A stretch of DNA of 64,000 bases. Origin: Cliona cf. orientalis (lineage: Eukaryota > Porifera > Demospongiae > Clionaida > Clionaidae). Every line of letters starts with the position of its first letter. Positions within the stretch are counted from its first letter, which is position 1. Position numbers and translations under genes: made by a program. The stretch lies in assembly GCA_963930775.1 (NCBI GenBank), contig OZ005695.1, positions 6,324,001 through 6,388,000 of the forward strand, in the 5' to 3' direction. The notes beneath the pieces were generated by a model. That model made no database searches. It saw nothing but the letters and a program-made list of their open reading frames with translations, and was not told where the DNA came from. Positions 1 to 62,855 of the stretch are shown piece after piece.

Positions 1-3000
1 CCAGGTTATCAGTGTGGGGTAGAGGGTTGGACCATGGCAGGGACGAAAGGTCACTGTAGGGTTCAAGGAACTCAGGAGGGAAACAGCAAAACTTCTGCTT
101 GGTTGCTATGGTAACAAGTCCACTATTCGACAGGTCCACTATTCGACAGGTCTCACCATAAAACTACAAAAAATTGGAAAAAGGGACTTAGTCCAGGGAT
201 CAAAGCTCACAAAATCTTGCAGTAACTTCTCAAAAAGATACTGCCAACCAATGCTAATTCTAAAGTGACATCGTTCTCACCATAGAGACGTACTGTCCTA
301 GCTCCTCCTTCAAGGAGTAGATCTGAGCAAGCTTCCCATCGTCACTGATGAAACGAACAGTGTCACCAATGTGCAATGGAGGCAGATCACTGTACACCTG
401 CACACAAATGAATGAACAAGACTGAGGACCATCCCACTGGATGCCAAAGCATCAGCCCAACACTCTCCTTTTTCCCATATAAAAGGAGGAGGGGCAAGAG
501 CCTGGTGATGACTCTCCATCCACATTATTACCCTGTGTGCATTCGCAAGGGGGTAAAGTAATCGGTCGTGCTGTTACCCCACGCATACGTGCAAGGGGTA
601 AAGCAATCCATTTGTCTGTCTATCATTGTTGTTGTTGTTGGCATGAAAATCGCCAGATCTCACATTCTAGGCACCTGTGTGTGCTGCAAGCACAACCAAT
701 CGGTAGATGTCAGTAAAAAAAACTGGTTTCTACGTGCTTCGAATAGCTCAAATGGCTTACTAGCACTATAAATTATGCATTTTCTGTTCAGCACGCCTGT
801 GGTTATCGACCACACCCACTCTACTGGCACATACCCTGCACGTTTTGTAGCCACTGTATTGCAACACAACACTCTACTGCAGAGTTGTTTTATGACTTGA
901 TGACCCTCCCAATATTTAGCTTGAGCATGCGCAATCACATAAGCACGTCATCTCTACAGAGCTGTAGTTGTTATTGTCGTTGCTGTCGTTGTGAGCACAA
1001 AACTACATTTCTTGAGACCTAGGCACCTGAGTGACTTGTTAGCACAATGAATCAGTCAAATTTGGTGAAAAACTGGCTTCTGATCAGTGTACTTCGAATC
1101 GAGGGATATAATTCATGAGCGTCACAAATAGTGCTTTTTTGTTAGCCATCGTAGTCACACCTATGGATAGTGCCTATTCAATATATACAGGCATGTACTT
1201 TCTGCTCATGCGCACAACTAAGTAGCCTAGAACTGGTAAAGATCATCGACATGACTGTAAGATACCTATATAAAATGTACTTATAATATGTAGTAGCAGT
1301 CCTAGTTTAGATCTGGTGCAGAGAGAGAATCAGTGATTGTTTTGGTTGATATCACTGGGACCCTTACAACTCTCACTTACAACCAAGCCTGAGCATTTCT
1401 ACCATGCACACAAAAGTACATGTAGATCTACAGATTGTGCAATGTGCACATGGGGTGCAGAGCTCGGGTTGTAATAAATCATTTGGAGGACACGCCACGC
1501 TCACAACTCTGTATAGTACCTTAGTAACAGCCTCGGCAGAGATGGTCCATCTCTGGTGGGAAGAAAACTTGATCCTGATGTCACCGTTTTCAAACACTCT
1601 CTGCACTCTACCAACTTCACCAAGAATCTATGCAGAGGAATAATCATCAGAGTAACAAAAGATCCAGTTGATACAGATATGAATGTGGAAAAGAAGGTGA
1701 GAGAGAATAGATGGATTCTCAAAATTTTAAGAGAAATGTGAAAAAAGGAATGCCGAGACCCAGGATCGAACCAGGGACCTTTAGATCTTCAGTCTAACGC
1801 TCTCCCAACTGAGCTATCTCGGCTAATTGACATTTCCATATTACCATCCAAAGTAGTCACTGCTGACCACGAGCCAAATGACATATATATACAGTACTAT
1901 AACACAGACATGAATGAACGTGAAGACCTCCATCTATAAGCTACATGTATAGCATGATTGAGTTGAACCCACCTCCATCATGTGATCATCCCAGCCGGTC
2001 TCCTCATTTCCCTCATGCATCGCCCTGAACACCTCCGGGTCTAGCTCCACCTTAACATAGTCTCCTGGAGAAATTTCACCAGACTGAACCACTTCGTCTT
2101 CATCAACAGGGGCACCTGGGTATGGCACACAAGAAATAACTAATAACACACACTGTACAAGGCCATCCTAAAATTTTCGTTTTACAGAAAATGATGAAAA
2201 TTTTTACCCAACAATAGTTTACCTATACTAACTTGTATAGTGAATAATATTATATGGTGTGCATTTGATATTATCATATTTCTAGCATAATACCTAAGTC
2301 TGGAAGGTGGTCAGGGTAGTAGTAGCTCACACAAGATGGCTCCATACACCGAAGCTCCACCTACAAAAGTCATCACGTTAAACAATGCCAGCAGTGTGTC
2401 ATAATATTATTCGTGTACCTTTCCCTCTGAACCAACTCGATGGGTGGACAACGATTGACTATCACTCCACTTCACTTCAGCAAATCCACGCTATACAACA
2501 ATTAAAAGATAAGCAATGCCATTACATAGATATTTGGAGTAGCTATACACTCTATGTGACCCCTGGCCATCCCTATAGTATAGTAAGTAAGGAACTGGAC
2601 TTAATTGCTACAATCCATGGTAATGCTAAGTACTGTATAATAGCCAGAGAAGTGGCTATGAAAATCTCAAAACTTTGGAAATTCTCATGTGGCATCAGTG
2701 ATCTGAGAGGTAACTGCTATCACTCACTGAATTGTCACCATCGGAACCCTGAATGTTCATAACCTCCCCATAGAGAAAGCCATCCATTGAATCTACAATC
2801 GTGATCATAATATGCAGAAACATAATATGAGTATGTAGTGATTATAGTCTGGATTACTCACCTTGGTTGGTTGTTGTCGTGATCCAGTCTCTTCCTGGTA
2901 TCACCTCAGCATGCTGGTATATTCCCCTGGCTTCCTTCTTCTTTGAACTGGCTCGAGTCGGCACCCGAACTCTTATTCTATACCATAACAATAATAATAT

Positions 3001-5376
3001 TATACAATGTACCACTGCCATATCATGTCATTGTCAAATGAAAGAAAGTGGGAGAGGGACGGGAAACAAACAATCTATTTTAATATGTGTACATATATAG
3101 GTGTTCACTGACGTTGAGAAGAACTTGCTACATAATGTATATGTACATAATATAGTTGCATAGCTTGTATTCTGATGATCGCAATAATATACATGTATAT
3201 AGCTATTGCTATGCTCCAAATAGATGCTTCTTTGAAATACACAAAAAATATGCAGAGGGAGGGGTCTATCCCAGTGGCGGATCTAGGATTTCCTGAAGGG
3301 GGGCCCTGTTATACTCTTGCGTGCGAAATTTTAGAAGCCACGCCCACTTTCGGCTAAAAACCACGCCCGTTTTGATCGTTTGAGAGCAAGTACCACTGGT
3401 ACCAGCCCAACCGATCGATTTTTGAACGAATTTTCTGCTAAAGCATGCTAAGGTGAGCCACAATAGCAGTTTTCTTAGTTCTGTAGCCAGAGAGAGGGGT
3501 TCCAGTTAGCCTATCATCAGTACGTTTTATTACTAGGTGCACCCCAAAAGGGGGTTCGGTTGAAACCTCCGAAACCCCCCTAAATCCGCCACTGTATCCA
3601 TTGAGTTAGGAGGGGATCGAATGCTATGGATAAGGCTAGATAACATTTATGATGTTCTACTACCTGGGCGTGTCCATGCGATCAAATTCATGATCTAGTT
3701 CATGTTTTCCAGACATATAGCAGAAGGTGCAAAGGTCACAATCACCACATCTGACGCACTTCCATCGTATCCCAGTGAGCTGAAGGCAGCAGGTACTACA
3801 CATCATGCGAGGGTGCTTGACACCTGCAAATGGACCGGGAAAAAGCAACAACAGTGCACTATTACAATTGAAGGTCTCTAGAATGAAGTTATAATTGTTC
3901 AGGAATACAGTTAGAGCACTCTAAAACACATACGTATACCCCACACGTTGCATCTGCATCTAGATCTATCTGCATAGAGATGAAACCTGCAGCTGTTAGA
4001 ATGCGCCCATTGACGACCTTTACCTATATATTGTGCTAGGTTGTGCACGAGCAGAAAACACAGTGTGGGTAGTGTTGATAGGTGTGGTCAGCTCTAATTG
4101 CACCTTGCCAAACAATTATAAGCATAATGAAGTCAGCTTTTGACAATTTCAACAAATTTATTATGCTCATGAGTCATTCATGTGCCTAAAATGCAGAGCT
4201 TGTGCTGACGACAGACGACCCCAGTCACCTCCCAATTGAACTCTCCCCCTCTCCCGATCCCTGGTTCTGAGCACAGGACAATCTTCAATCACATAGTGTG
4301 TGAGATTACAATAGCTAGGCCACGTACTGGTCAACAATATTGCAGTGGACATCCAAGTGCAATATTTATCCCATGCACATGCACAAGATATTAAATTATA
4401 AAGTAATCCACACACTAGAGCAGACTGTTACAACCAGACTACATAGTATAGTCTCCACTCAATGGACAGTGGACAGATGCTGTTCCCAACCCTCTTCTTT
4501 CCTCTCAAATATACACACACTTCTAGTTCCACTGTGAGTATAAATTATTAACCCTCGGCGCATGCGCCGTAGGGTTACGGTAGTCGTTCTGTGTGTCTGT
4601 GTGTCTGTCTGTCTGTTAACTCTGTAACTGCTTCATACTTCGTTTGCGAGTCTCAAGCTCAGTGTTATACGATTCTTTACGGCGTTTCAAACGTATGTAT
4701 TGTGTGGATTTCGCTGAAAATGCTTTGTTCTCCAGTTCTGGCGGCATTTGCCGATTCTAAGCTTCTTGACTTTGCCCGAGCTAGCGATAGCATGACTTAA
4801 CGTATAAATAGGTTGCGCGCTATATACGGTATGTACGTCAATTAACCCTCAGCGCATGCGCGGTTGCATCAAAAATTAAATATGATCACAGTGGCTTCTT
4901 TTCCAGGCTTAGCTGCCTGCATGTATTCTTGTGGTACCTCTGGCTTGTATGCATGCATGACATTACAGTGCTTGAACTCAAGTGATATTGGACATGCAAT
5001 ATTGCTCAGTGTACTTCAGTCTTGTGCCAATGTTTTGCATCATAGTACTTCAAGTTAAGATGTACCTAGCTATATTATACCCAAGTCCCCAAGAATTGAA
5101 GGTTAGGCTACAGTGAGGGAAATTGAGTTGATGTCGACACCACAGCATGGAGTTTGATACAACACACTAGGGTTGTTGCTGCTATGAGCTGTTGAACCTT
5201 GAATAACACTGCTGTGCAAGTAGCTATAACATTAGCCTCATCCCTGTCTCGCCCCGGCCCCAGCCCTTTAGCTACCCTTCTGCATGCAACTGTTGAAGCA
5301 TGTAGTTAATGCCAAGCAACGCGCCGAGGGTTTTGTGGTCGAGAGAGCTCTAGTTATTAGAGGCATGACCTAATGG

Positions 5377-5409
<33 letters not shown>

Positions 5410-5740
5410 GGGGGTGGTGGGGATTGGAGGAGAAAGAGAGCCTATCACTTGTCATCGGCTAGCAATGGAGTCTATACCTATAGCTATACTCACCAGCAGG
5501 TGCGCTATCGATGACCCTGAGGTCATAGGTGTCTCCCAGTCCACACCTGTACCTGCACCTGTTGCCACAGTCCCACTGGACGGTCACCACACACGGACCA
5601 GGACAGCCTCCGTCCACTAGACCACCAAGATCTGCTCGAAGCACCTCTGCCACCGTACCTACGTGACCCTCTCCGCCATCCTGCTCCCCCCAAGTCCAAT
5701 CTCGACCTCGAACCACTCGCGTACCAACTAGAACGTCCAT
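1..5740 (-). CDS. mind-bomb-like E3 ubiquitin ligase, left copy (3' part outside window)
   Basis: Multi-exon minus-strand gene, cut by the window edge. Exons read by eye: 5494-5740 (first MIB/HERC2 domain), 3664-3823 (ZZ zinc finger), 2862-2977 plus about 2735-2790, 2419-2490 and 2296-2361 (second MIB/HERC2-like domain split over four exons, ending [11 protein letters not shown]), about 1971-2117 and 1500-1619 (repeat region, with [19 protein letters not shown] and [17 protein letters not shown]), about 290-400 and 1-170 (next repeat region). Mind bomb proteins ubiquitylate Notch ligands through C-terminal RINGs after ankyrin repeats; those parts would lie left of position 1. The start at 5740 is chosen because the paralogue begins at the same [10 protein letters not shown]. 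The frame stays open upstream to an ATG at 5782, so a 14-residue longer N-terminus is possible. Splice borders are GT/AG and match the paralogue exon for exon. The family call is firm; the choice between MIB1 and MIB2 is open. Confidence 0.85.
529..1470. repeat. R1 dispersed repeat, two copies in tandem
   Basis: Fills the intron between the repeat-region exons of the left mind-bomb gene. The first copy (about 529-970) starts with a degenerate GCGCATGCGCAAGGGGTAAA-type end, runs through GTCTGTC and TTGTTGTTGTTGGCA blocks, and shares the block around GTGGTTATCGACCACACCCA with copies at 11.5 and 59 kb. The second copy (about 971-1470) matches the other subfamily, with CAATGAATCAGTC and CTCATGCGCACAAC blocks. 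Similar tandem pairing is seen at 40.1-41.1 kb. Confidence 0.65.
1751..1823 (-). tRNA. tRNA-Phe (anticodon GAA)
   Basis: A complete 73-base cloverleaf reads on the minus strand. The acceptor stem GCCGAGA pairs fully with TCTCGGC, followed by discriminator A and no encoded CCA, as expected in a eukaryote. D arm is TAGCTCAGTTGGGAGAGC, the anticodon loop CTGAAGA carries GAA (bases 1790-1788), and the T arm contains GGTTCGATCC, so internal A and B boxes are intact. A six-T Pol III terminator follows (plus-strand A run at 1741-1746). It lies in an intron of the left mind-bomb gene and on the same strand. Confidence 0.96.
3272..3594. mobile_element. MITE with CAGTGGCGGATC termini (5-bp TATCC target repeat)
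   Basis: A non-coding 323-bp element in an intron of the left mind-bomb gene. It begins CAGTGGCGGATCTAGGATTT and ends AAATCCGCCACTG, with a GGGGGG/CCCCCC step just inside each end. It is flanked by TATCC on both sides (3267-3271 and 3595-3599). A second copy at 49995-50330 has the same ends and also a 5-bp target repeat (CCTCC), so the two copies support each other's boundaries. The CAGTG start resembles hAT-like elements; the superfamily is inferred. Confidence 0.85.
3664..3823 (-). CDS. ZZ-type zinc finger exon, left mind-bomb gene
   Basis: 160-nt exon with zinc ligands in the pattern C-S-T-C...C-V-R-C...C-D-L-C-T-F-C and a closing H-E-L-D-H, as in ZZ fingers. It ends DRMDTPR at a GTAGTA donor. 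The acceptor is TTTGCAG. It has the same length and phase as the ZZ exon of the paralogue (14772-14931). Confidence 0.87.
4549..5357. repeat. R1-related repeats (CAGCGCATGCGC/GAGCTCTAGTT ends)
   Basis: Two related blocks lie between exons 1 and 2 of the left mind-bomb gene. One starts TTAACCCTCGGCGCATGCGC (4550) and one starts TTAACCCTCAGCGCATGCGC (4843). The second ends with GGTCGAGAGAGCTCTAGTTA near 5355, the terminal motif of R1. No open reading frame of note is present. Confidence 0.5.
5378..5408. repeat. 31-bp G homopolymer
   Basis: Uninterrupted run of G about 80 bp downstream (in gene sense) of the first exon of the left mind-bomb gene, inside the intron. It could form G-quadruplexes and its length in the assembly is unreliable. 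Confidence 0.9.
5494..5740 (-). CDS. first coding exon of left mind-bomb gene: MIB/HERC2 domain
   Basis: Encodes [20 protein letters not shown], then the [10 protein letters not shown] box typical of MIB/HERC2 domains, then [14 protein letters not shown]. In mind bomb this domain helps bind the tail of the Notch ligand. The donor is GTGAGT at 5493-5488. The sequence is nearly identical to the first exon of the right copy at 16265-16511, which marks a recent duplication or gene conversion. Upstream of the chosen ATG the frame continues with [12 protein letters not shown], which has no counterpart in the paralogue. Confidence 0.88.
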
Positions 5741-5934
5741 CTTCTTTTCCAGAGAGCGGGGGTTTCCCCAAGGAAAGCCCACCCAGTTATTAGTGTTAAT
5801 TAACTGGTGATGATCGTCACTTATGTAAGTGCAGTACGCTATACATTATCAACACATTCCTTAGTCTCTGAAGCTTAGGGGCTGGCACCCATGCTAATTA
5901 ACCTAGTACCATTCTCTTTTCCAGCAAACAGATC

Positions 5935-5990
5935 TAGTCTCGTGGACCAGCCCCTCCTACTTTAAGAAGAGTGCATGGGAGGGGCTGGCT
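5935..5990. repeat. short foldback with CTAGTCTCGTG seed
   Basis: CTAGTCTCGTGGACCAGCCC is followed after a short loop by GGGAGGGGCTGGCTCGA, giving an imperfect hairpin between the two mind-bomb genes. The same seed starts the foldbacks at 17949 and 49967. Confidence 0.55.
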
Positions 5991-6109
5991 CGATCAGCCT
6001 TCAGAATGCCATACAGCCTGAATCCAGAATGCTTCTAGGAACAGTTCAACTGGCACCTGTGCTTCTCAGACTTCTGTAGGATGGTGATATTAGCTAGAAA
6101 TTTGCCAAT

Positions 6110-6970
6110 GTGATACACATGACATTGCATGTCAGTTACATGCTGGGTTTGACTTCTTATACTAAAGGGATTGGCATTTGTATAATATTATTATCTATAC
6201 ACGTACTACTGTTAACTGGTTCCTCGATTATAAGCAGATATTGCTGCAATTGTATTATATACCAGCAACAGACAAGATGTAAAGGATATACTTCAAAGAA
6301 AATATCATAACACAATCATGTATTACAATCATCTAGATCTATTTTGGATCCTTACTCTATCACTTATACTAGACATAGTCCTATTGAGTTGAAAGGAAAT
6401 TTCATATTCTTTCATAGCCTTGCACGGAACCCTACAGTGATAATATAGTCACAAGAGGTGTCAGCTAGGACAATGAATGATCCTAAATCACACAAGTCAA
6501 TACTGAACACTGCCTATGCTTATCATATTATGAGTGTGCGCCAATGGTCACAGCTACATGTATGAGCTTACTATCTATGGATTTAGCATACAACTGCCAT
6601 TACACTTCTTCTAAAATTCGGCCCTTCTAATTATTTGGCACCCTTTTGAAAATAGTCTCGGCAAAGGTCGTCATGCATATAATATACAATAGAATGTGCA
6701 TGCGGATGGAATGTTGAATACTGACCTCTAAAAATTCGGCTCAAGTAATGTCATGCTGAATTTTTAGAAGAAATATGGTACCTACTTATCATGACTGTGT
6801 ATTAATTTTGTTAGCAAAATTTTTACGTTAGAGAAATTTTTATGTAACAACATTTTCGTCAACTTCAAGCGTGCGCCATATATTTGCTACATAAGTCAGT
6901 ACAGGTGAACTATTTTCACGTAATGAAAATTTCGCGAATTATGGTACTAGATGATCGTGATCTATAGTAT
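6110..6970. other. intergenic interval between the two mind-bomb genes
   Basis: AT-rich DNA between the last recognised exon of the right copy and the start of the left copy. I see no coding exon that can be placed. 6800-6945 contains fragments of the GAAAATTT/ATTTTCG repeat also seen at 13100-13290, 28880 and 62.9 kb. The missing C-terminal exon or exons of the right mind-bomb gene should lie here. Confidence 0.4.
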
Positions 6971-36564: not shown

Positions 36565-36584
36565 TGCATGCATGCACATACTAT

Positions 36585-39500
36585 TTAAGGTACCATTAAA
36601 TTGCGTGGGCGTGAGGTGGGGGATATGACACCTAAACCACATCAAAGTCATTAGTGAGGTGCATGTTGTGTAACCACGCCCTTTTAATTGCACAGGTCTC
36701 AGGGGTGTGGCTGCTAGAGCCGGAAGTGTTCATTTAATATCCTCCATGGACCGGAAGCCGAGCCGGAAGGGAGGGGCCAGGCCACGCCCAAAACAGCCCC
36801 ACCCTGTTCCCCAAGGACCACCATTCTCAATCAAGTGCCTACTAACCACCGGATGTCCACCGGAAGCCCACAATCAATCCCAATTAAAACACACAGCTTC
36901 CTCAAGGCCAAAACACACACAAACACTTGGAGGCCGTTCCGCCACACCGCCCATGCAAGAGCTCACCTCATTTCCTGTGTGGGCGGAGTAACAACACGTC
37001 ATCGCAACCACATCCGCTTCAAACCATTGTCAGCTTCCGTCCAGCCGTACAGGCCCCTCGATCGCACCGCCGTACAGTGCCTCATTAACTGACATGGCCT
37101 CACCTTTGACCTCCTGCCACGCCCCCAAAGCCTCCTGGCCGGGTTCAAAGGTCACCACCGCATCCGGGACACGCCCACCTATCGCCGCAGCCAAGTCCCC
37201 GGCCCCGATGTCCAAGCACTGGCCTGTGAAGCCACGCCCAATCGGAAGCAATAAAACCTGCATTAACGCACACGCACACTCCACACAGTGCCAGGAACAC
37301 GCCCACATGCTTAATTAGGCCTAATTAGCTTTTTTTTTTTTTTTTTTTTTTTCAAGGCGACCAGAACACTAAGCAGAAAAAAAAATTGTTCGAAAACCGC
37401 CACATAGTTGAGTTTGATGCATAATAGAGCCATACAATGCAAGCAGGCAGCCTATACATCAATTTTGATCAAAGTGGGTAATGGTCGTCACGTTAATGTG
37501 CGCGCGTGGCCCCGCCCCTCACGTAGCGCGTGGGCGGAAAACATTGCAAACGCATGGCTTCCTATACAAACATATGGGAAAACTTCAAAGGGCCGTAACT
37601 TTAATTCTAAGGTGTGAATCAAAATTCCCCTGCGTCAAATCTCTAGTTTCGACCCATTCTGCGTGCCCATATAAAAATTATCCCCCCAAGTGCTCCCAAA
37701 TCCCCCACGAATTAGATTATTTATTTAAATTTGCTTTTTTTTCTACTTAGTGTATAACAAGGCGACCAGAACACTAAGCAGAAAAAAAAATTGTCCGAAA
37801 ACCACCACATAGTTGAGCTGGATGCATAGTAGAGCCATACAATGCAAGCAGGCAGCCTATACATCAATTTTGACCAAAGTGGGTAATGGTCGTCAAGTTG
37901 ATGTGCACGCGTGGCCCCGCCCCTCACGTAGCGCGTGGGCGGAAAACATTGCAAATGCATGGCTTCCTATCCTATACAAACATATGGGGTAACTTCAAAG
38001 GGCCGTAACTTTAATTCTAAGGTGTGAATCAAAATTCCCCGCCGTCAAATCTCTAGTTTCGACCCATTCTGCGTGCCCATGTAAAAATTATCTCCCCAAG
38101 TGCTCCCAATTCCCCCAAACATTAATTAATTATATAAATTCTTTTTTTTTTCTACTTAGTGTATAATTTTTCAAGGCGACCTGAACACTAAGCAGAAAAA
38201 AAAAATGTCCAAAACCACCACATAGTTGAGCTGGATGCTTAGTAGAGCCATACAATGCAAGCAGGCAGTCTACACTCCAATTTTGACCAAAGTAGGTAAA
38301 GGTCGTCACGTTTGTGTGCGCGGGTATTCCCCGTTTTTCACGTAGCGCGTGGGCGGAAAACATTGCAAACGCATGGCTTCCTATACAAACATATGGGAAA
38401 ACTTCAAAGGGCCGTAACTTCAATTCAAAGGCGTGAATCAAAATTCTTTCAGGTCAAATCTCTAGTTTCGACCCATTCTGCGTGCCCATGTAAAAATTAC
38501 GTCCCCAAGTACTCCCAAACCCCCCATGAATTAGATTATTTATTTAATTATTTAAATCTTTTTTTTTCAAGGAGACCAGAACACTAAGCAGAAAAAAAAA
38601 ATGTCCAAAACCCACCACATAATCGAGCTGGATGCATAATAGACCCATGCAATGCAAGCAGACAGCCTAAACTTCAATTTTGACAAAAATGGGTAAAGGT
38701 CGTCACGTTACTGTGCGCGCGTGGCCACGCCCCTCACGTAGCGCGTGGGCGGAAAACATTGCAAACGCATGGCTTCCTATACAAACATGGGGATACTTCA
38801 AAGGGCCGTAACTTTAATTCTAAGGCGTGAATCAAAATTCTTTCAGGTCAAATCTCTAGTTTTGACCCATTCTGCGTGCCCATGTAAAAGTTATGTCCCC
38901 AGATGCTCCCAAATCCCCCATGAATTACATTATTTAAATTTTGTTTTTTTTTCTACTTAGTGTTTAATAATTTCTACTTAGTGTTTAATTTCAAGGGGAC
39001 CACACACTAAGCAGAAAAAAAAATGGTCCGAAAACCACCACACAGTCGAGCTGGATGCATAGTAGAGCCATACAATGCAAGCAGGCATCAAAATAGCCAT
39101 ATGTGCAATGTTTGGTAAAGGGTCGTCAACGTACCCCGCGCGCCCGTAATTTTTTTTATGGGCAAACATTGCAAGTGCATGGCTTCCTATACAAACATAT
39201 GGGGATACTTCAAAGGGCCATAACTTTAATTCTAAGGTGTCAATCAAAATTTTCTCATGTCAAATCTCGTGTTTCGACCCATTCTGCGTGCCCATATAAA
39301 AATTATCTCCCCAAGTGTTCCCAATCCCTCCAAACATTATTTACTGCAAAGAAATCTTTTTTTTTTTCTACTTAGTGTGTAATAAGTCGTTGCGGTTAAT
39401 AGTTAAGAAAGAATGCTTTGATCTTGCTTTGATGTGGGCAATTACTGGCCTTTTCTTCAGGGGCCACTTCCGGTCGCTAATTACACGCGCATAATCATCC

Positions 39501-39862
39501 CTGGCCGATTCTGGACACGCCCACCTTCGACCAAAAGCACTCGTATGGCCTCTTCGACCACGCCCCTTCACGATTCGGATTGATTGTGGGCTTCCGGTGG
39601 ACATCCGGTGGCCAGTCGGCACTTGATTGAGAATGGTGGTCCTTGAGGCACAGGGTGGTGCTGTTTTGGGCGTGGTCTGGCCCCTCCCTTCCGGCTCGGC
39701 TTCCGGTCCATGGAGGATATTAAATGAACACTTCCGGCTCTAGCAGCCACACCCCTGAGACCTGTGCAATTAAAAGGGCGTGGTTACACAACATGCACCT
39801 CACTAATGACTTTAGGTGTCATATCCCCCACCTCACGCCCACGCAATTTAATGGTACCTTAA
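36585..39862. mobile_element. 3.27-kb TTAA-flanked inverted-repeat element
   Basis: TTAA (36585-36588) then GGTACCATTAAATTGCGTGG at the left; the exact inverse then TTAA (39859-39862) at the right. Inverted repeats span 36589-36880 and 39577-39858, about 97% alike apart from a 10-base block CCACATCAAA present only on the left. A TTAA target site suggests mobilisation by a piggyBac-type transposase, but none is encoded. The interior has a GC-rich segment (36990-37310) and five tandem units (37366-39378). Open frames inside are not supported as genes. Confidence 0.88.
37366..39378. repeat. five tandem about 390-bp units, each with its own inverted termini
   Basis: Units at 37366-37753, 37771-38162, 38185-about 38568, 38581-38963 and 39004-39378. 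Each begins ACACTAAGCAGAAAAAAA; four end TTTTTTTCTACTTAGTGT, the inverse with one mismatch. The third lacks the right end and the fourth repeats its last 20 bases. Shared internal blocks include AACATTGCAAACGCATGGCT, GGCCGTAACTTTAATTCTAA and TTCGACCCATTCTGCGTGCC. Each also carries GGTAATGGTCGTCA or GGTAAAGGTCGTCA followed by a GTGCGCGCG-type stretch, as in R1. Confidence 0.9.
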
Positions 39863-39906
39863 AACTTATCTACTGTACACAGTATATGGCATAGTAGAAA
39901 GCTTAA

Positions 39907-60656: not shown

Positions 60657-60956
60657 GTAATATATTGGCCAATCTGATTGGTAAATGTAGACTACAGGAT
60701 TATGCTAAATCTGATTGGTCAGTGTAAGTGATATTATATCTACAGTGGTGGATCCAGGGTGGAGCACATGAGCCACCTCCCCCTTCAACCTTGAGTCTCC
60801 CATCCAGCAGAACTGACTTAATGTTTTTGGTGAATTTAATTATGTTTTCAACTTATTTTAACAGCAAAACACACCAAACTTCAACATTAGTCAAAATAAT
60901 ATAGTACTTTGCTATGGAAGCCGAGAAGTGCAATTTACCACACGACGCCCATTTCC

Positions 60957-61150
60957 GCATGCGGAGGGCCAGCTCCGCATGCGGACGTACGTTCTCCGCG
61001 TGCGGAGAGCCAGCTCCGCATGCGGAGACCCTGCTCCGCATGCGGGGGTGTCTTCTCCGCGTGCGGAGACCCTGCTCCGCATGCAGAGATACCTTCTCGG
61101 CATGCGGAGACTCTGCTCCGCATGCGGAGGTAGCGTCTTGACGTGCGGAG
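60957..61150. repeat. CCGCATGCGG array, left arm
   Basis: About ten self-complementary cores (CCGCATGCGG, some CCGCGTGCGG or CGGCATGCGG) spaced alternately 20 and 21 bp, separated by AGGGCCAGCT, AGACCCTGCT or ACGTACGTTCT-type spacers, so the true unit is about 41 bp. Confidence 0.92.
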
Positions 61151-61392
61151 ACCTCTTTTTCAAACCATCACAGCCTAGCCGTTTCATTACCCGACCAGTG
61201 TTAATAGTATAGCGTTGATCTTGGCGTGGTTAACCTTCTTTGTACTACAGTGCGTGGGTGCATCAAAGGCACCGCCTAGAGTTTACCTAGCATAGACCAC
61301 CAAGGTGTAGTCTAACTGCCAATTAGGGCAGTTATACTATGCTTAGTCAGCAATAGATGGTAGTTAAACTACAGCTGTAGTACAAGCCAGAC

Positions 61393-61521
61393 AAACTACA
61401 CACTACTGAGGTTATCACACATACACTCGGTGGTTATGCAAATAGACACCTCGGCTCCGCCTCGGTGTCTATTTGCACAACCACCTCGTGTATGTGTGAT
61501 AACCTCAGTAGTGTGTAGTTT
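61393..61521. repeat. 129-bp hairpin inside the left arm insertion
   Basis: AAACTACACACTACTGAGGT and its inverse at 61502-61521 extend inward through ATCACACATACAC and GCAAATAGACACC to an axis at CTCGGCTCCGCCTCGG. Arms of about 60 bp with very few mismatches. Confidence 0.9.
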
Positions 61522-62319
61522 ATCTATAACTGAGAAGCCTCTTCAGCAGGGACTATGATTTCTACAAGACTGTGACTGCCCGGCGTGCAGGGTGTGGCTA
61601 GCGAGACTAGGTCTGGCGACGATCGAGCCAGAGTGTGTCACAATTAGATAGTATACTAGTAAGTTGTAGCTATTGAACACTTAGTAACTACTGTCCATAT
61701 TCTCTGGCTACTGGCTCTAAGACAGTCGTTCCATTCATGGGGCGGAGCCCAATTTCACAAAGCGACCACACCCAATTTTATTGATCACGCCCATAATACA
61801 TGTAGGGTGTGCATATTATTCAGCAGCTTTTGATGAACTATAGCTAGCAATTTTGAAGCTTGATAAAAACGCTATGCTAAAGCTTCAAAATCGCTATCCC
61901 GTTCATTAGTAGCTGCTGAATAATTCACACCCAATAATTATAATATTATGATGAGCGTGATCAATAAAACGGGGTGTGGTCGCTTTGTGAAATTGGGCTC
62001 CACCCCACGAATGGTATAGAGTCAGTAGCCAGGAATATGGACGGTATATATACTAGGTGTTCAATCCTAGTAGCTACAACTTACTATAGTATACTATCTA
62101 ATTGTGGCGCACTCCGGCTCTCGGTTTGACCGTCGCCGGATCTATTAGCCACACCCTTAAGCATCATGCTGGGCCTTTGCTCAGTCACAGCCTTGTAGAA
62201 GTCACAGTGCCTGCTGAAGAGGCTTCTCAAGAAGGTTAACCACGCCAAGATCGACGCTATACTATTAACACTGGTCGGGTAATGAAACGGCTAGGCTGTG
62301 ATGGTTTGAAAAAGAGGTC

Positions 62320-62582
62320 TCCGCACGTCAAGACGCTACCTCCGCATGCGGAGCAGAGTCTCCGCACGCCGAAAAGTGCATCTCCACATGCGGAGCAGGG
62401 TCTCCGCACGCCGAGAAGTGCATCTCCGCATGCGGAGGTACGTCTCCGCATGCCGAGAAGTGCATCTCCGCATGCGGAGGTACGTCTCCGCACGCGGAAA
62501 ACGTTTGCCCGCGTGCGGAGCTGGCTCTCTGCACGTGGAGAACGTACGTCCGCATGCGGAGCTGGCCCTCCGCATGCGGAAA
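62320..62582. repeat. CCGCATGCGG array, right arm (inverse of left)
   Basis: Inverse of the left array but longer, about 13 cores, with added copies carrying the spacer AAGTGCATCT. The arms have therefore diverged in copy number since the palindrome formed. Confidence 0.9.
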
Positions 62583-62855
62583 TGGGCGTCATGCGGGAAA
62601 TTGCACTTCTCGGCTTCCACACTTTGCAACCTGAAGCCAGCAACAAAACATGGCAACTGTGGCAATTAGGGGCCATGGTTCACAGATTTTGGACCTTTGC
62701 CAAAAACTTTTGCGCATGTATATTATAATCATGCTCCCTCCTTTCTAAAATCCTGGATTTGGCTCTGAGCTACATCCATAATAAGTTATAAATGAGGTTT
62801 ATTACAATAAACCAAGGTTAATGGTGTCCCAGGACCGCGCAATGTACCTCTGACA

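Follow-up and report, generated by a model that had tools for sequence, protein, structure and literature searches.

Two questions are raised by a giant palindrome in the genome of the sponge Cliona cf. orientalis: whether it is a mobile element, and what purpose the arrays of self-complementary cores in its arms might serve. The palindrome lies near one end of the window analysed (the whole stretch of 64,000 nucleotides, positions 6,324,001 to 6,388,000 of contig OZ005695.1; coordinates without a contig name refer to it), and an initial annotation had proposed, from the letters alone, that its arrays could be the binding region of a transposase.

A foldback element and its dispersed copies

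The 1.7-kb palindrome has two inverted arms ending in arrays of CCGCATGCGG-like cores, and its palindromic nature is borne out by the arm pairs 60915–61025/62509–62619 (95% identical) and 61093–61240/62229–62376 (98%); alignment of the whole arms, with a 290-bp insertion set aside, gave 774 columns, 129 of them gapped, with 88.7% identity in the rest. Because an exact 6-bp target duplication, CTTTGC, sits directly outside 60913–62621 (at 60907–60912 on the left and 62622–62627 on the right), we place the ends of the element at these positions (TA..CA, with termini TATGG..TCCACA), two bases beyond the 60915–62619 first annotated; the arms of that extent stand, its limits do not. The left arm is broken at 61241–61530 by the 290-bp insertion, which is found in this arm only, contains a hairpin with 67-nt arms (61389–61525) and matches nothing in those copies of the window family that were fetched; part of it matches a flank at another locus, L039. 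The left non-array arm thus comprises an outer part (61154–61240, plus strand) and an inner part (61531–61800, plus strand), the latter resembling, like the right non-array arm (61945–62320, minus strand), the transposase-side end of a 10.8-kb copy on contig C11 described below. No open reading frame of at least 150 aa occurs within 60913–62621, and the architecture is that of foldback elements, in which long inverted repeats contain tandem arrays and the interior has little coding capacity or none. A second large palindrome in the window (36584–39863; arms of 53 nt, 100% identical, and of 241 nt, 97% identical) encloses most of a 405-bp tandem array of five copies, and no exact duplication of 6–9 bp was found near its ends.

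A search of the genome (217 Mb, 149 contigs) with the 239-bp left arm yielded 212 matches, many of them repeats inside one array, and the 21-bp terminus, with up to three mismatches, occurs at 353 sites, sister families included, versus three for the reversed control. Our sample consisted of 27 fetched places, one of them in two loci, to which further copies were later added. Among 35 two-ended copies of the window family and its sisters, the 6-bp duplication was perfect in 29, matched at 5/6 positions in five and at 2/6 in one (L049, which was retained in the count), while flanks taken 10–55 bp farther out as a control matched at 5/6 or better in only 1 of 350 cases; L034 and L035, for each of which just one end with the window-family terminus was found, were left out of the duplication and core counts. 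The duplications start with G or C in 26 of the 35 and finish with G or C in 25, and have A or T at position 3 in 29 and at position 4 in 30, a base pattern that fits a symmetric target.

The copies take two shapes, one in which the non-array arms are wholly or partly present (the window copy, L009, L012–L015, L021, L026–L028, L031, L033 and the C11 copy) and another without them (L016–L020, L022–L025, L029, L030, L032, L036 and L047, the middle of the last being a KDZ unit). The non-array arms of L009, L012 and L027 are 96–97% identical to the left arm in the window, which suggests fairly recent spread. Were the palindrome a non-mobile local inverted duplication with satellite-like expansion, as its shape taken by itself would allow, the dispersed copies with their common termini and target duplications would not be expected, and we regard that explanation as practically untenable. 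The initial annotation had conceded that an array found only here, with neither termini nor cores elsewhere, would mean a local expansion; copies, termini and cores are all dispersed, and its mobile-element reading is upheld by them, by the excess of termini over the control, by the target duplications, 29 of them perfect, and by the autonomous-type partner candidate described below. The window palindrome is a single copy of a foldback transposon that is scattered through the genome.

Core arrays in the window copy and in the family

Scanning the window element for CCGCATGCGG with up to two mismatches revealed 21 cores (nine on the left, 12 on the right), ten of them exact, whereas the average over 300 dinucleotide shuffles was 0.96 cores, with a maximum of six and none exact. 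The left array (60955–61127) has nine cores with successive spacings of 20, 21, 20, 20, 21, 20, 21 and 20 bp, and the right array (62342–62579) has 12, spaced by 20, 22, 20, 22, 20, 22, 20, 21, 20, 21 and 20 bp; the core at 62529 in the latter has three mismatches, and an extra two-mismatch core at 62587, 17 bp on, lies off the series. The 'about 10 and 13' cores of the initial annotation are therefore nine and 12 in the regular series, a fair estimate if one degenerate core per arm, discernible by eye, is admitted, and the alternation of 20 and 21 bp that it described holds roughly for the left arm but fails on much of the right, where 20 and 22 bp alternate.

In all, 27 family copies contain 813 cores, mostly 20–22 bp apart. 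Their 786 consecutive spacings (813 – 27) include 704 at 20–22 bp, out of 733 short ones, and 33 at 40–44 bp, where one core was missed, the remaining 49 being other values or gaps between arrays; the mean of the 719 spacings of 19–22 bp is 20.65. Since the number of cores per copy ranges from 12 to 45, the unequal copy number in the two arms, held to be unusual, is ordinary in this family. In 447 distinct 42-mers a 14-bp palindrome, (C)TCCGCATGCGGA(G), is conserved between variable spacers. The cores were selected on their inner ten positions, and the outer CT/AG flanks, which played no part in that selection, are also conserved; the conservation could nonetheless partly reflect recent array expansion together with the selection procedure.

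The spacing of 20–22 bp is consistent with two helical turns, although its constancy is no proof of selection, because tandem growth by itself also yields it. The idea that all cores face the same side of the DNA accordingly fits the window family, but sister families described below have array periods of 7, 12, 21 and 23 bp, so that the 20/21-bp phase is no general rule; a functional role for equal helical facing is plausible. A terminal 13-mer, GCCGAGAAGTGCA, recurs within the array units two to 11 times per element in the 11 of the 27 copies examined for it. Observed/expected CpG ratios are 1.06 and 1.25 in the two arrays of the window element versus 0.56 in the window, and the array CpGs, which are without visible decay, may point to youth or to a lack of methylation.

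A gene-bearing copy and its transposase

The search for an autonomous partner with the same termini led to the candidate on C11 (C11:6463065–6473834, assembled from L010 and L011), a 10.8-kb copy with the ends and arrays of the window family, 44 cores, a perfect 6/6 target duplication (CTGATC) and an rva_4 transposase; one of its ends is identical to an end of the window element at 59 of 60 positions, and it is the one gene-bearing copy of the exact window family that we found. The Pfam profile PF24764 (rva_4, integrase core) has 137 matches in the genome, one of them inside this copy (E = 2.3e−5). The transposase appears to be encoded on the minus strand by a spliced gene, modelled by homology, with the motifs HVDGYD, SDYGTEN and RIEGWW. 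When joined, its core exons match rva_4 with E = 5.1e−25 and rve with E = 0.008, below the cut-off, and had no match in PDB (phmmer) or NCBIfam; the joined N-terminal exons match HTH_21 with E = 5e−4, also below the Pfam cut-off, and no HHCC zinc motif was seen by eye in those N-terminal exons that were read from this incomplete gene model.

Two other enzymes lie within copies of the family. At L047, a 6.2-kb copy, the ends and arrays of the family come with a 5/6 target duplication and a KDZ (Kyakuja–Dileera–Zisupton) transposase exon (E = 2.3e−13), and mobilization of the window family by this transposase was considered on these grounds. However, a 105-bp inverted repeat within the array belongs to the KDZ unit itself, and copies of this unit that are 99.7–99.9% identical lie at L052 and L053 with no core and no bounding terminus in the 7.1–7.2 kb fetched; moreover, Zisupton duplications are given as 8 bp in the available text of PMC12730594. 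KDZ as partner is very unlikely, and we rejected it on account of the separate inverted repeat and the occurrences elsewhere without the array. Beside the KDZ gene at L052 lies a 343-aa open reading frame (5766–6797, minus strand) that, by reading, has a C-terminal CXXC-like cysteine motif.

In L009, a 6.85-kb copy, an exon encodes a TNP-like RNase H domain (E = 1.4e−10), which raises the question of a P-superfamily foldback of the Galileo kind, mobilized by this P-like transposase, all the more as the available parts of PMC3688188 describe long, internally repetitive terminal inverted repeats (TIRs) with sites for a THAP domain in Galileo. Against this, the P-like gene resides in an element of its own, with CAAGAGTATATAA TIRs (146 bp, 95% identical) and, by eye, a 7-bp duplication, ATCACGC, and among ten fetched non-foldback places with related P exons, six have TIRs starting with CAAGAGT or CAAGAGTA and apparent 7-bp duplications. 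Such an origin is extremely unlikely: the P-like element is nested in the foldback and duplicates 7 bp, the foldback 6 bp, and this candidate too was discarded. P-like transposons with CAAGAGT-starting repeats and apparent 7-bp duplications were noted at L009:1081–6606, L038, L039, L040, L042, L044 and L046, the genome has 74 related P-like RNase H matches, and inside the unit in L009, on the strand opposite to the transposase, a 403-aa open frame (1325–2536) has no Pfam match.

Apparent inserted foreign elements are present in the long copies L009, L047 and L055. In the C11 copy, blastn (at least 20 bp) reported no nested inverted repeats, only the copy's own arms, but since nesting is common this falls short of proof, and the C11 transposase might conceivably be an inserted gene whose own repeats have vanished.

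The assignment of the rva_4 transposase to IS3EU/GingerRoot rests on termini, target duplication and fold class. The available text of PMC10045372 gives, for complete IS3EU families, ends of TA..TA and duplications that are usually 6 bp long, and for GingerRoot elements 6-bp duplications with TA..TA or occasionally TG..CA ends; fungal IS3EU termini are TAYGG..CCRTA (PMC12730594, available parts). Several features of these transposons recur here: a 6-bp duplication, perfect in 29 of the 35 copies, family ends of TATGG..CCATA, and an integrase-like DDE transposase in the autonomous-type copy on C11. Each of the 35 copies has TA at one or both ends and none has TG at both; many, that in the window included, have mixed TA/TG ends, a pattern without description in the available portions of PMC10045372 and PMC12730594. 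We therefore read the window element as a non-autonomous, long-TIR cut-and-paste transposon of the IS3EU/GingerRoot type at whose arrays the enzyme of the family would dock, and give this reading a probability of roughly 0.8. Both window arms resemble the transposase-side end of the C11 copy (77% identity over 380 columns and 74% over 400), while their matches to its opposite end extend over only 139 and 151 columns; thus, judging from these alignments, the palindrome probably arose by inverted duplication of one end, with loss of the genes.

Sister families, putative docking arrays and a companion kinase

The nearest relatives of one C11 transposase exon are 65–67% identical to it. The closest transposase exons lie at four places: C11 itself and E2 have both ends, E3 has a left end only and C17 has none (no terminus with up to four mismatches in the 7 kb fetched). 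E2 (C1:35067126–35078768; L057, L061 and L058) has the same terminus, a 6/6 target duplication (GGATAC) and transposase and kinase exons homologous to those of the C11 copy, and its array is made up of CTCCGAAGCTTCGCCGAAGTCAC (23 bp). E3 (L060 and L062; left end at C1:8728594, right end not found in 13.5 kb) bears TACGGAAGCCGAGAGG together with a 12-bp TCGCCGACATCA array, and TACGG is found at the right end of E2 and the left end of E3. Further sisters are L050, with a 21-bp CTCCGCTAGCGGA array and no transposase gene found, and those with 7-bp CCGCATC/CCGCAAC arrays, identified by a repeat finder in L048, L051 and L056 and by reading the ends in L049, L054 and L055, in all six of which no transposase gene was found; L054 and L056, both long copies, have no recognizable open reading frame of at least 100 aa. 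The foldback at L055 contains (2231–5749) a 1172-aa frame that, by reading, appears to encode a LINE-type endonuclease/reverse transcriptase.

Termini are thus conserved between families and arrays are not, even though CCGC or CCGA underlies each of the five array types seen. We propose that the transposase acts on the TATGGAAGCC terminus, conserved among families, and that the family-specific CTCCGCATGCGGAG cores, palindromes made of TCCGC half-sites, are bound by its HTH-like N-terminal part or by a partner. With many cores at regular spacing, several transposase dimers could be loaded per end, which would raise the specificity of end recognition; with transposase on the cores, the ends would then most likely be synapsed, cleavage would take place at the TA/TG termini and insertion would follow with a 6-bp stagger. 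That the array is the transposase-binding region, as first suggested, is plausible, and we read the arrays as family-specific docking sites mainly because the termini are constant, the arrays differ and GCCGAGAAGTGCA is repeated in the array units, and by analogy with Galileo, for which docking has been shown (PMC3688188, in the parts available). The array of an IS3EU-type element could instead be a passive tandem expansion, or serve the host in chromatin or methylation, and be no transposase site at all: tandem arrays expand easily, core number varies almost fourfold among the 27 copies, and sister arrays differ in period. We consider this unlikely, though worth keeping in mind, since the cores hold their sequence and near-constant spacing while the spacers vary, four other CCGC/CCGA-based array types occupy the same subterminal position in sister elements, and the terminal 13-mer lies within the array units.

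Besides the transposase, the C11 copy has on its plus strand a protein kinase gene, convergent to that for the rva_4 protein. Its joined exons match Pkinase with E = 1.1e−29, VAIK, HQD and DFG motifs can be read from the letters, and receptor-like kinases and IRAK4 make up most of the best 60 of 2042 PDB matches. A kinase exon match (29 genome-wide) lies within 12 kb, a limit chosen after the coordinates had been seen, at 10 of 26 transposase-exon loci, all ten including a convergent one; without the C11 query element the count is 9 of 25, and within 5 kb there are matches at 8 of 26 loci, six of them convergent. In 5000 trials of random placement on the same contigs the mean number of convergent cases within 12 kb was 0.06 (maximum 2), or 0.09 (maximum 3), in as many trials, when C1 kinases beyond 15 Mb were kept within 15–37 Mb. 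Three of the ten loci also have a same-strand match, which at two of them is closer than the convergent one, and 16 of the 26 have no kinase match within 12 kb; a single simple transposase–kinase unit is therefore not supported everywhere. Nevertheless, the layout recurs in diverged relatives that have the same terminal bases and different arrays: kinase exons homologous to those on C11 occur in E2 and also in E3, convergent with the rva_4 gene. Separately, we noted a 20-kb pair of sister-family termini (C1:15824672–15845108) that encloses kinase matches at C1:15833942 and 15834201.

In fungal rust IS3EU families with a TET/JBP gene, an alpha-kinase lies opposite to the transposase (PMC12730594, available parts), and this companion is therefore a precedent for a kinase beside an IS3EU transposase, albeit of a different type. 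Among the matches listed from open-licence PMC papers, none was seen to report IS3EU elements that have arrays of this kind or a protein kinase of the ordinary class. We tentatively suggest, at less than even odds, an animal-type IS3EU/GingerRoot lineage in which a convergent transposase and receptor-like kinase are inherited together, and whose families renew their docking arrays while keeping their termini. If so, the arrays would be family-specific address codes that co-evolve with the binding domain of the transposase and block cross-mobilization between sisters, and the role of the kinase would be to control either the transposase or the way the host responds. The convergent kinase, parallel to the fungal alpha-kinase, suggests that kinases may be a recurrent partner of IS3EU-type transposases.

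Comparison with known foldback and IS3EU-type systems

Drosophila Foldback and Phantom (Mutator-like) elements are likewise foldbacks whose long inverted repeats contain tandem repeats, but differ from the window family in transposase and in duplication length, theirs being about 9 bp. Duplications are of 8 bp in hAT elements and of 7–8 bp in the P superfamily. Kat1, a hAT element and so of another superfamily than the window family, is similar in that its subterminal repeats are needed for enzyme activity, according to the available text of PMC4763223.

The sponge elements depart from IS3EU/GingerRoot elements, as described in the available parts of the two papers cited for them, in having arrays of palindromic cores inside their inverted repeats and large palindromes as non-autonomous copies. 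The TIR of the fungal Styx, which is IS3EU-like, measures 36 bp (PMC10853768, available text), unlike the array-bearing repeats here, and the companion kinase belongs to the ordinary protein kinases (IRAK/receptor-like) instead of being the alpha-kinase of fungal IS3EU (PMC12730594, same parts); no TET/JBP gene caught the eye in the sponge elements.

Galileo, a P-superfamily element of Drosophila and thus with a transposase of another superfamily, offers a likeness in how it works, as far as the available parts of PMC3688188 describe it: the DNA-binding domain of its transposase binds repeated sites inside the long, internally repetitive TIRs, as we propose for the sponge enzyme, and different families have the same terminal bases, the binding site being located in the stretch that is particular to each family. 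Its sites, one footprinted and two identified by search and gel shift, do not form dense arrays of palindromes at 20–22 bp in the same text. What long, repetitive inverted repeats are for is a long-standing question in Galileo, Foldback and Phantom alike, and with several sister families in one genome that combine a common terminus with differing adjacent arrays, their role becomes testable.
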